In this document: one piece after another, positions 1 to 7,237 of the stretch
Layout of the letters: each line of letters starts with the position of its first letter
How positions within the stretch are numbered: position 1 is the stretch's first letter
Source of the DNA: Betaproteobacteria bacterium
Lineage (GTDB): Bacteria > Pseudomonadota > Gammaproteobacteria > Burkholderiales > JAHFQX01
Direction: 5' to 3'
DNA length: 57,104 nt
NCBI GenBank assembly: GCA_023259135.1
Contig: JAHFQX010000017.1
Location: forward strand, 1-57,104
Made by a program: the position numbers and the translations under genes
The notes under the pieces: generated by a model
Database searches by the model: none
What the model was told of the DNA's origin: nothing
The model's input: only the letters and a program-made list of their open reading frames with translations

Positions 1-1
1 C

Positions 2-3000
2 CCCACCTCGGCCGACGCCTCCTGCATCGGCGGCAACATCGCCATGAACGCCGGCGGCAAGAAGGCGGTGCTGTGGGGCACGGCGGTGGACAACCTGGCC
101 TCCTGGCGGATGGTCACCCCCGATGCCGACTGGCTGGAAGTGGAGCGCCTGGACCACAACCTGGGCAAGATTCACGACGCCGCGGTCGCTCGCTTCCGCC
201 TCACCCGCTTCGCCGCCGACGGCCGCACCCCCAAGGGCGAGCCGCAGCTCCTGGAGCTCCCCGGCAGCGCGTTCCGCAAGACGGGGCTGGGCAAGGACGT
301 CACCGACAAGGTGCTGGGCGGATTGCCGGGGGTGCAAAAAGAAGGCTGCGACGGTCTCATCACCTCCGCCCGCTTCATCCTGCACAAAATGCCGGCCCAC
401 ACCCGCACCGTCTGCCTGGAATTCTTTGGCCAGGTGCGGGAAGCGGTGCCCTCCATCGTCGAAATAGTGAACTATTTCGACGGTTGCGGGTTTCGAGTTG
501 CGAGTTCCGAGTCGGAAACCGCTCACCCGGAACTCGCAATTCCAAACTCGAAACTCGCAACCCGAAACCCGCAACCCCGAGTCTCGCTCGGCGGACTTGA
601 GCACCTGGACCACCGTTATCTCAAGGCCGTGGGCTACGCCACCAAGGCTCGGCGGGCGGGACTGCCCAGGATGGTGCTGATCGGCGACATCGTCGGCGAA
701 GACGAGAACGCGGTGGCGGAAGCCGCCTCCCAGGTAGTGCGCATCGCCAACTCCCGGCACGGGGAAGGATTCGTGGCGGTGAGCGCCGAAGCCCGCAAGC
801 AATTCTGGCTGGACCGCGGGCGCACCGCCGCCATCGCTCGGCATACCAACGCCTTCAAGATCAACGAGGACGTGGTGATCCCGCTGGAGCGGCTGGGGGA
901 TTATTCGGACGGCATCGAGCGCATCAACATCGAGTTGTCCATCGGTAACAAGCTGCGCCTGCTCGACGAACTGGAAGCCTACTTCTCCGGCGAGCTGCCG
1001 GTGGATCAGGACGAGCTGCCCCTGCCCGCCGCGGAAATCCTGGGCAGCCGGCCGCAGCAGGCCCTGGAACTGCTGCGCGCCACCCGTGTCCGCTGGAGGG
1101 AACTGCTGGATGGCCTGGACCAGCCCTATGCGGGACCCGAGGCCGGCCCCGGCCGCACCACGGTGTTCCACGCCCTACAGGACTATACCCTGCGGGTATC
1201 GTGGAAACGGGAGGTGCGGGATCCGCTGCGCGACATCTTCAGCGGCCGGACCTACCGCAGCCTGCTGGAAGGCTGCGAGGCCACCCAGCGGCGGGTGCTC
1301 AAAAGCCGGGTGTTCGTGGCGCTGCACATGCATGCCGGGGACGGCAACGTCCACACCAACATTCCGGTGAATTCCGACGACTACGGCATGCTTCGCGAAG
1401 CCGACCGGGCGGTGGCCCGCATCATGGCCCTGGCGAAGTCGCTGGGAGGCGTCATCTCCGGCGAGCACGGCATCGGCATCACCAAGCTGCAGTTCCTGGA
1501 AGCCGGGCAAGTGTCGGCCTTCGCCGCATACAAGCAGCGCGTCGATCCTCGGCAGCGCTTCAACGCCGGCAAGCTGCTGCAAGGCGGCGACCTGTCCCGG
1601 GCCTATACCCCCAGCTTTGGCTTGCTGGAAGCCGAAAGCATTATCCTGGAGCAAAGCGAGATCGGCGGCATCTCCGATTCCATCAAAGACTGCCTGCGCT
1701 GCGGCAAATGCAAGCCGGCGTGCAGCACCCACGTGCCCCGCGCCAACCTGCTCTACAGCCCGCGCAACAAGATCCTCGCCACCGGGCTGCTGATCGAAGC
1801 CTTTTTGTACGAGGAGCAGACCCGGCGCGGCGTCTCTATCAAGCATTTCGACGAGTTCGGCGATGTCGCGGATCATTGCACGGTCTGCCACAAGTGCCTC
1901 AATCCCTGCCCGGTGGACATCGACTTCGGCGACGTTTCCATCGCCATGCGCAACTTCCTGCGGCGCCAGGGCAAGAAAAAATTCAACCCCGGCACCGCGG
2001 CGGCCATGGCCTTCCTCAACGCCACCGACCCCGCCGTCATCAAGACGATCCGGACGGGCATGATCGGCGCGGGCTACCGCCTGCAGCGCTTCGCCCACCG
2101 CGCCGCCAAGCGCCTCGGTCTGCTGCGGGAGCAGACTCGGCACCCGCCGGCCACCTTGGGCCGCCCCCCGATCCGGGCCCAGGTCATCCATTTCATCAAC
2201 AAGCCCATGCCGGGGGGACTGCCCAAGAAAACCTCCCGGGCGCTGCTGGATATCGAGGACAGCCGCTACGTCCCCATCATCCGCGACCCCGCCAAGGTCA
2301 ACGAAGACTCCGACGCGGTGTTCTATTTCCCCGGCTGCGGCTCGGAGCGGCTGTTCGGCCAGGTGGGGCTGGCTACCCAGGCCATGCTGTTCGATTTGGG
2401 AGTGCAATGCGTGCTGCCGCCGGGCTACCTGTGCTGCGGCTATCCCCAGACCGCCGCCGGAGAGGAAGCAAAAGGCCAAGCCATCATCACCGACAACCGG
2501 GTGCTGTTCCACCGGGTGGCCAATACTCTCAACTACCTGGACATCAAGACGGTCATCGTGTCCTGCGGCACCTGCATGGATCAGTTGCAAAAATACGCCT
2601 TCGAAAAAATCTTTCCCGGCTGCCGGCTGCTGGACATCCACGAATATCTGCTGGAACGGGGCGTCAGGCTGGAAGGCGTGGAGGGCGTGCGCTACCTATA
2701 CCACGACCCCTGCCACACCCCCATGAAAACCCACCAGCCCCTCAAGGTGGTCAATCAACTGATGGGCGCTCCGGTGGCCCTCAACGACCGCTGCTGCGGC
2801 GAATCCGGCACCCTGGCGGTGACCCGCCCGGATATCTCCACCCAGGTGCGCTTCCGCAAGGAAGAAGCAATGCGGAAAGGCGCCGCGGCGCTGCGCCGGG
2901 ACGATTTCGCCGGAGAGGTGAAGGTGCTCACCTCCTGCCCCTCCTGCCTGCAAGGGCTGTCCCGCTATGACGACGATTCCGGCACCACCGCCGACTACAT

Positions 3001-3097
3001 CGTGGTGGAAATGGCCAAACACCTGCTGGGCCCGAGCTGGATGGCCGACTACGTCGCCAAGGCCAACCGCGGCGGCATCGAGCGGGTGCTGGTGTAG
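2..3097 (+). CDS. FAD-linked / Fe-S oxidoreductase, DUF3683 type (5' truncated)
   Basis: The frame is open from the window edge, so the N-terminal part of the FAD-binding domain is missing; an internal ATG at 44 is not the real start. The visible part carries the end of an FAD_binding_4 fold ([16 protein letters not shown]), a FAD-oxidase C-terminal region ([25 protein letters not shown]), two ferredoxin-like clusters ([11 protein letters not shown] and [12 protein letters not shown]), then two CCG domains of the GlpC/heterodisulfide-reductase kind (FPGCGSE..CCGYP, SCGTC; DPCH..CCGESG, SCPSC). This is the architecture of the large fused D-lactate/glycolate-dehydrogenase-like oxidoreductases of betaproteobacteria, which probably oxidise a 2-hydroxy acid and pass electrons to the quinone pool; the substrate is unknown. 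Residues about 161-192 of the visible part come from an in-frame heptamer repeat insertion (482-577) that I do not recall from the family. Confidence 0.85.
482..577. repeat. Inverted pair of heptamer tandem repeats inside a CDS
   Basis: Four units of GTTNCGR run from 483 to 510 and seven units of GNAAYYC run from 529 to 577. The second set is the reverse complement of the first, in the same 7-bp phase. Positions 482-508 can pair with 550-576 over about 27 bp with two mismatches, leaving a loop of about 41 nt. The frame stays open through the element ([15 protein letters not shown]...[12 protein letters not shown]), so the gene is not interrupted. The same unit, CTCNAAA, makes up the spacer at 47034-47082. 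Confidence 0.85.
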
Positions 3098-6343: not shown

Positions 6344-7237
6344 ATGAATCCAAGCCAACGCAAGGGCATTATCCTGGCCGGGGGCTCTGGCACCCGGCTC
6401 CATCCCGTCACCCTGGCGGTCTCCAAGCAACTGCTGCCGATCTACGACAAGCCGATGATCTACTACCCCCTCAGCACTCTCATGCTGGCGGGGATCCGGG
6501 ATATCCTGATCATTTCCACTCCCCAGGACACGCCCCGCTTTGAGCAACTCCTGGGCAGCGGCAGCCAATGGGGGCTGAATCTGCGTTACGCCGTCCAGCC
6601 CTCCCCCGATGGGCTGGCTCAAGCCTTCATCATCGGCCGGGAATTCGTCGGCAACGACCCCGCGGCGCTGATCCTCGGCGATAACATCTTCTACGGCCAT
6701 AGCCTGCAGCGCCAACTGGAAAGCGCCATGGCTCGCCCGGCGGGCGCCACCGTTTTCGCCTATCACGTGCACGACCCCAAGCGTTATGGAGTCGTCGCCT
6801 TCGATGCCGAGGGGCGCGCCACTTCCATCGAGGAAAAACCCGCCCAACCGAAATCCGGCTATGCCGTCACCGGGCTTTATTTCTACGACAACCCGGTCCT
6901 CGACATCGCCGCCGGCTTGCGGCCCTCGGCCCGCGGCGAACTGGAGATCACCGACGTGAACCGCATCTATCTGGAACGCGGCCAACTGGCCGTCGAGATC
7001 ATGGGGCGCGGCTACGCCTGGCTGGACACCGGCACCCATGAATCCCTCTTGGAAGCCAGCCAATTCATCGAAATCATCGAGCGCCGGCAGGGCCTGAAGA
7101 TCGCCTGCCCGGAAGAAATCGCCTATCGCAAGGGTTTCATCGACGCCGCCCAACTACAACGGCTTGCTGCGCCCCTGCTGAAGAACGACTACGGCCGATA
7201 CCTGATGCGGCTGCTCGGCGAGCAAGCCGCGCAATGA
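6344..7237 (+). CDS. rfbA: Glucose-1-phosphate thymidylyltransferase
   Basis: RfbA/RmlA joins dTTP and glucose-1-phosphate to make dTDP-glucose, the first step of dTDP-L-rhamnose synthesis. The 297-residue length is standard. The nucleotide-binding start ([16 protein letters not shown]), the [11 protein letters not shown] segment, LGDNIFYG, and [11 protein letters not shown] near the C-terminus are family hallmarks. It overlaps rfbC by 4 bp (ATGA), so the two are translationally coupled. The middle steps (rfbB dehydratase and rfbD reductase) are not in this window. Confidence 0.95.

Follow-up and report, generated by a model that had tools for sequence, protein, structure and literature searches.

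What is the tandem repeat that interrupts an oxidoreductase gene at the edge of this contig, and how did it come to lie there? We examined the repeat within the whole stretch of DNA analysed, 57,104 bases long (the window), in the rest of its genome, and in other genomes. Our preferred answer, to which we give a probability of about 0.57, is that positions 482–579 hold a bare hairpin of heptamers belonging to a widespread class, whose fuller form encloses a gene for S23p, the 23S rRNA intervening-sequence protein (PF05635). The features on which the argument turns are the following.

2–3094, plus strand: host gene, an FAD-binding oxidoreductase (FAD/4Fe-4S), its 5' end cut by the contig edge.
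482–512, plus strand: 5' arm, four heptamer units and a partial one, NCGRRTT on the plus strand and AAYYCGN on the minus strand; minus-strand reading GACTCGG AACTCGC AACTCGA AACCCGC AACC.
513–523, no strand: centre between the opposed arrays, by its sequence too short for an S23p gene.
524–579, plus strand: 3' arm, eight AAYYCGN units, five exact and three with one mismatch; reading CACCCGG AACTCGC AATTCCA AACTCGA AACTCGC AACCCGA AACCCGC AACCCCG.

The element consists of two opposed arrays of degenerate AAYYCGN heptamers, 12 units in total around an 11-nt centre, with 8 of the 12 matching the unit exactly and 4 carrying one mismatch. Its arms (482–512 and 546–576, 31 nt each and spaced 33 nt apart) are complementary at 29 of 31 positions (94%), both mismatches being A-C on the plus strand, and the 5' arm is G-rich and the 3' arm C-rich, as in the arms of S23p elements. 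The highest period-7 score of the entire window falls here (27/35 at lag 7). The RNA of 482–579 has a predicted folding energy of −66.2 kcal/mol (z −7.6), which none of 200 shuffled sequences equalled; together with the 35 matches to the repeat in the genome, against 0 for the control pattern, this led us to reject a chance origin. No S23p (PF05635) gene lies between the arms, where only about 11 nt separate the arrays. A search of the element against Rfam returned no known family, the matches below the gathering score being to microRNA families and VA RNA. The 5' arm holds a single run of three G; the unit is AAYYCGN, and the G-quadruplex unit GGGANTN is absent.

Is the repeat part of the protein, or was it added to it? 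The host oxidoreductase matches FAD_binding_4, FAD-oxidase_C, Fer4, CCG, and a C-terminal DUF3400, and its reading frame stays open through the array, which occupies approximately residues 161–193 of the frame. Orthologues were sought in 60 relatives from the order, none of the same family, of which 47 had a match; 30 loci were compared, one being the window itself, which leaves 29. All 29 lack the inserted segment, with 26–29 of its residues aligning to gaps, and we therefore reject a conserved protein segment. The element is an insertion in the oxidoreductase gene, and the earlier note's description of an inverted heptamer element inserted in frame is borne out: neither of the two observations that the note named as refuting it was made, the segment being carried by no orthologue read (0/29) and further arrays being present in the genome. 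The insertion place is a short variable loop in the orthologues, lengthened by unrelated residues in a few. Because the orthologues are at most ~67% identical to the host protein, the junction of the insert is approximate and not exactly readable, and the fact that no target duplication was seen has to be read against nearest empty sites that are themselves only at most ~67% identical. The hairpin array was correctly recognized in the note, and its dimensions need correction: it ends near 579 rather than 577, and the net insert is about 29 residues rather than about 30. An assembly error at the element is unlikely, because the oxidoreductase gene runs on to either side of it; the 5' part of the gene is found on contig C53, whose end overlaps window positions 1–85 exactly, over 85 bases. 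A search of solved structures with the host protein gave no alignment spanning the insert.

The statement in the note that selection must have retained a tolerated length goes too far. One length in three keeps the frame, and AAYYCGV units (A, C, or G at position 7), in any mixture, contain no stop codon in any of the six frames. Because the unit is stop-free, an AAYYCG copy whose length is divisible by three leaves the frame whole in either orientation. The heptamers beside the order's S23p genes contrast with this: 43 of 58 have a stop in some frame (composition-matched random, 39%). We considered whether T is avoided at position 7 as a form of selection against stops and dropped the idea, since C is as rare there as T among the listed public arrays (C 18 and T 15 of 986 positions, from a scan pattern that itself fixed some letters).

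Does the repeat occur elsewhere in this genome? A scan with three units and at most one mismatch gave 35 overlapping matches at 10 sites including the window, compared with 0 for the reversed pattern; the other arrays for which the note proposed a check are present. These copies are degenerate rather than near-identical to one another. The sites outside the window, together with the sole S23p gene, are as follows.

C13: intergenic hairpin.
C72: hairpin directly upstream of a pyruvate kinase gene.
C27: array in the gap upstream of an M3 peptidase gene.
C31, at 27.6 kb: array close to a gene end.
C31, 37913–38005, 38568–38608, and 39750–39776: arrays in the leaders of three neighbouring prepilin-like genes (L063).
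C29: array inside the nucleotidyl-transferase domain of a ManC-like gene.
C36: one of the ten sites.
C26, 10883–11432: the sole S23p gene of the genome (L207), between chemotaxis-like genes (named by inspection).

The arrays in the prepilin-like leaders are in frame, ahead of the hydrophobic segment; one of the three genes has a Pfam N_methyl match, and the other two were assigned from their sequence by inspection. Weaker sites appear with a two-unit pattern, such as a hairpin on C70. The S23p gene on C26 is flanked on either side by arrays of a different heptamer, GCRRGAR, with an inverted array after the downstream one, and the GCRRGAR pattern has no match elsewhere in the genome beyond this locus. 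Any action of S23p on the AACYCGN arrays of this genome is therefore putative, with the GCRRGAR arrays of its only S23p gene standing against it.

How widespread are such arrays? The four-unit pattern is uncommon in the order. Of 399 genomes 8 carry it, several by exact repetition of a single unit, and mixed units occur in the window's genome and in two others (G319 and G350). Public genomes hold at least 119 stretches with AACYCGN arrays. Titles were obtained for 80 and, among the matches listed, include Acidobacteria, Bacteroidales, Planctomycetes, Omnitrophota, Cloacimonadota, Desulfobulbaceae, Betaproteobacteria, and one archaeal bin, with the proviso that genome bins among them may be contaminated. 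Also among the matches listed, neighbouring arrays within 1 kb of each other have the order "minus then plus" in 41 cases, "plus then minus" in 1, and the same orientation in 20, and by the strict pattern a close minus–plus pair is found at only 31 of 119 loci. Elsewhere, too, copies lie inside genes: L142 has one within a polysaccharide deacetylase domain, and in L161 the array falls between UvrA domains. Of eleven further open frames tested that run through arrays, 4 have a Pfam match; the other 7, lacking one, may not be genes. The UvrA-like frame, from a member of the Gemmataceae, is 2394 residues long and was seen to contain two separate in-frame heptamer hairpins, at ~1584–1686 and ~6975–7141.

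What lies between the opposed arrays where they are farther apart? S23p, a link missing from the reading in the earlier note, occurs in 7 of the 119 AACYCGN stretches among the matches listed. In five of these seven S23p-bearing stretches it lies within 100 bp of an array, versus 0.99 expected, and four of the seven minus–plus gaps of 151–600 bp hold it (both among the matches listed). At four loci S23p sits exactly between a minus and a plus AACYCGN array: L095 (Bacteroidales), L105 (Desulfobulbaceae), L141 (Gemmatimonas), and L197, of which L330 is the same element. Three of these four belong to named other phyla. This speaks for the preferred reading, as the same unit, in the same minus-then-plus order, bounds S23p in four loci of other genomes. 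At a further locus (L357), S23p lies between two AACYCGN-type arrays of one orientation rather than opposed ones. Arms of AACYCGN type were found at S23p in L095, L105, L141, L197, and L357 and are absent at this genome's own S23p; across the order, none of 83 S23p loci has even two AAYYCGN units within 200 bp.

We then asked whether S23p is associated with heptamer arrays of any sequence. S23p is present in 69 of 300 genomes of the order, at 113 listed places, of which we read 83, leaving out split halves, some duplicates, and weak matches; flanks were 200 bp, and the downstream one was usable in 81. A period-7 array lies upstream in 41 of 83 loci and downstream in 51 of 81, as against 6 of 628 distant segments; 58 of 83 have one on either side and 35 of 83 on both. 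At the same threshold, lags 4, 5, 10, and 11 gave 0 near S23p and at most 2 of 628 far from it, and lag 6 gave 2/83 upstream, 1/81 downstream, and 17/628 far. Lag 8 was raised (7/83 upstream, 6/81 downstream, and 2/628 far), and lag 9 gave 7/83, 2/81, and 15/628, respectively. The remaining 25 of 83 loci have no period-7 array at this threshold, some having 8- or 9-nt units instead. The two flanks of an S23p gene form inverted repeats (score 16) with their own partner in 47 of 83 loci, compared with 12 of 830 for swapped partners and 5 of 83 for direct repeats. We also read 30 loci from named genomes and 29 from a draw from the phylum. The phylum draw gave a period-7 array at 25 of 29 loci (20/29 upstream and 23/28 downstream; far, 7/224), and the named genomes at 21 of 30 (18/30 upstream and 17/28 downstream; far, 9/220). 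Most S23p loci read in the order and the phylum thus show a heptamer array in at least one flank, and at about half of them the arrays are paired and inverted. Units of 8 nt, and in one case 9 nt, were also seen in the same inverted plan, in S23p elements or bare hairpins (L215, L226, L242, L465, L490, and L216).

Co-occurrence within genomes is a less telling measure than position. S23p is found in 42 of 44 genomes chosen solely by their AACYCGN pattern, two array-bearing genomes lacking it. For comparison, S23p occurs in 69 of 300 genomes of the order and in 37 of the 200 drawn from the phylum, and its base rate reaches 42 of 60 genomes in the order to which a Bacteroidales bin belongs. The co-occurrence is weakened because S23p is common anyway in some groups, and we therefore weighted position instead. 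As a control for position we used PF13366 genes, which are also short inserted genes, often in S23p-bearing genomes. Their flanks, taken at 260 bp versus 200 bp for S23p, contained period-7 arrays in 0 of 30 cases upstream and 0 of 29 downstream (one at the next lower threshold; far, 2/174). These GxxExxY-type genes do have arrays of their own: inverted arrays of 8–10-nt units were recognized in six loci of the series L298–L327 (e.g., L298, L300, L304, and L308), where the inversion was judged by eye alone. In the PF13366 flanks lag 8 is raised (4/30 and 3/29; far, 0/174), and lag 9 more weakly (3/30 and 5/29; far, 7/174). PF13366 genes with such 8–10-nt inverted arrays are a probable sister class.

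Do elements with and without S23p occupy the same places? Among 142 S23p loci, 23 groups have common flanks on both sides, the largest being at the gap between dnaK and dnaJ, with 13. Many S23p elements, and many bare hairpins, lie in operon gaps such as dnaK–dnaJ, nuoC–nuoD, and guaB–guaA (gene names read by inspection of the translated flanks). To compare arms and proteins we could use 131 of the 142 S23p proteins and 76 of the 142 elements with both arms. For 56 of 79 elements at shared sites the nearest S23p relative is at the same site, and many S23p elements look old for this reason. The dnaK–dnaJ gap was then sampled in its own right, with 90 gaps from 289 genomes with DnaJ. Six of the 90 hold S23p, an undercount because six genomes already known to have S23p there were skipped, and a period-7 array is present in 6 of the 84 that lack S23p (L453, L454, L471, L486, L489, and L493). 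These counts are independent of the assigned end of dnaK, which was misplaced in some gaps. Two of these bare arrays (L453 and L454) come from the same genus (g73) as L231, which bears S23p at dnaK–dnaJ. In the bare gaps, lags 7, 8, and 9 are about equally frequent (6/84, 5/84, and 4/84), the signal at lags 8 and 9 stemming partly from 8-nt hairpins and PF13366-type arrays. Arrays resembling the PF13366 type were also seen bare in dnaK–dnaJ gaps L458, L460, L461, L463, and L472. The heptamer hairpin thus occurs at one site in two states, with S23p and without it.

The arms of an element seem to change together: heptamers differ by 0.92 between the arms of one element (39 elements), as against 1.95 between the upstream unit of one element and the downstream unit of another at the same site (142 pairs), and by 3.23 between different sites. 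What keeps them alike? If pairing in the sense transcript maintained the arms, G-U mismatches should exceed A-C mismatches. Among the 102 of 142 elements with alignable arms, we counted 120 G-U and 159 A-C mismatches on the sense strand, with 27 elements leaning to G-U and 44 to A-C (p 0.06). Upkeep by RNA pairing is therefore unsupported, and the result fits copying between the arms at the level of DNA.

Palindrome arms can be corrected by template switching between them, and under the preferred reading such arm-to-arm copying may be what keeps the two arrays at 482–579 alike. The bare hairpin would spread by the same process as the S23p-bearing form, or would be left behind by it; the fuller, S23p-enclosing form shares its plan with the intervening sequences of some 23S rRNA genes. 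In the host gene, the ribosome might simply read through the hairpin, adding a loop that the protein tolerates.

Could the repeat instead have arisen in place, without any element or protein? A heptamer occurring by chance in the gene might have grown by ordinary slippage, with the inverted arm then copied by template switching. Slippage has been proposed for heptamer repeats, which are over-represented in many bacteria (work cited in the excerpted text of PMC4692102 and PMC4679880), the two arms nearly duplicate one another, differing at 2 of 31 positions, and copying between arms agrees with the absent G-U bias. Slippage alone, however, predicts no common unit, no polarity, and no attachment to one protein family, whereas the ten sites here and genomes of many phyla have one degenerate AACYCGN unit in common, and opposed neighbours favour one polarity by 41 to 1 among the matches listed. 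We regard this origin as somewhat unlikely. Quite unlikely, in our estimate, is a role of the arrays as structural signals in RNA or DNA—for attenuation, mRNA processing, or nucleoid or protein binding—that are under selection and bound by S23p, the copy in the oxidoreductase gene being a stray one. The matching arms, the strong predicted fold, and the many operon-gap positions would suit such signals, but the sense strand does not tolerate G-U pairs in preference to A-C, and here the array lies in a coding domain without an obvious signalling role. That the insert has a function in the protein and was selected for the residues it contributes is highly improbable: the kept frame agrees with it, but these residues simply translate the repeat and are missing from every orthologue read, and the same repeat stands in gaps and in other genes.

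How does the element compare with known systems? REP/BIME and MITE sequences are likewise short palindromes inserted at dispersed sites, and some come with a gene of their own. Unlike them, the heptamer elements have arms of tandem units that differ between elements, with no fixed terminal sequence; of the features of MITEs, the copies here are degenerate, and no target duplication was seen at the empty sites discussed above. The earlier note had proposed a proteobacterial counterpart, able to enter coding DNA, of the cyanobacterial heptamer repeats known as STRRs; the entry in frame stands, but the novelty does not, as heptamer repeats of Xanthomonas and Beggiatoaceae were already published. 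The Xanthomonas GGGAATC heptamers form inverted pairs (70 cases in Xcc and 75 in Xac), are degenerate and dispersed, preferably between aligned genes, and were treated as G-quadruplex repeats, generally without mobile elements; a search of that paper's text for S23 found none (PMC4692102). Heptamer arrays in Proteobacteria, with inverted pairs among them, are already known. Like those repeats, 482–579 has tandem, degenerate 7-nt units in two close, opposed arrays; unlike them, its unit is AACYCGN and it lies in frame within a gene. Nostoc heptamer repeats have few inverted pairs (excerpts of PMC4692102), and TAACTGA heptamers of Beggiatoaceae, Cyanobacteria, and Bacteroidetes are chiefly direct, with one inverted repeat (excerpts of PMC4679880). 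Like the present element, the Nostoc, other cyanobacterial, and TAACTGA repeats have 7-nt tandem units common to several phyla, but in the excerpted accounts the Nostoc and TAACTGA repeats are chiefly direct arrays in gaps. Read forward, moreover, TAACTGA stops translation, whereas AAYYCGV does not. Size-constrained tandem repeats in Bacillus have other periods (PMC8161180).

The closest precedent for the fuller form is the Coxiella 23S rRNA intervening sequence, in which S23p lies between inverted ends that form a 28-bp stem, GACAGAT heptamers precede the S23p start in numbers that vary between strains, and the protein family is described as having no known function (excerpts of PMC4990558). 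Unlike this intervening sequence, which is in rRNA, the element at 482–579 interrupts a protein-coding gene and encloses no S23p. No paper joining S23p genes with flanking heptamers in general was among the matches listed from the open-licence literature, the Coxiella paper being the nearest, and a search of the same literature for the repeat's own letters gave one match, to a cloning primer. That S23p genes tend to lie between inverted heptamer arrays is new relative to these listed matches.

Bacterial heptamer repeats have been described genome by genome, and their origin is not agreed. The association ties these repeats and S23p together, each gaining a testable partner, and the repeat studied here probably represents, in bare form, a genetic element that is widespread and has been little studied. 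Its in-frame copies show that the element can add low-complexity protein segments that annotation would mistake for real ones, and the rRNA intervening sequences, so far a peculiarity of a few genera, would become one instance of a general element. A broader generalization can be offered only tentatively, and we incline to doubt it as a whole: heptamer hairpins would be one mobile class across bacteria, with S23p as the protein dedicated to them (perhaps at one protomer for every 7 nt of single strand), with 23S rRNA intervening sequences as those that landed in rRNA, with arm-to-arm copying keeping each element palindromic while its heptamer drifts, and with the PF13366 8–10-nt arrays as a sister class. 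Relatives of S23p with solved structures are 2gsc and 2rld.
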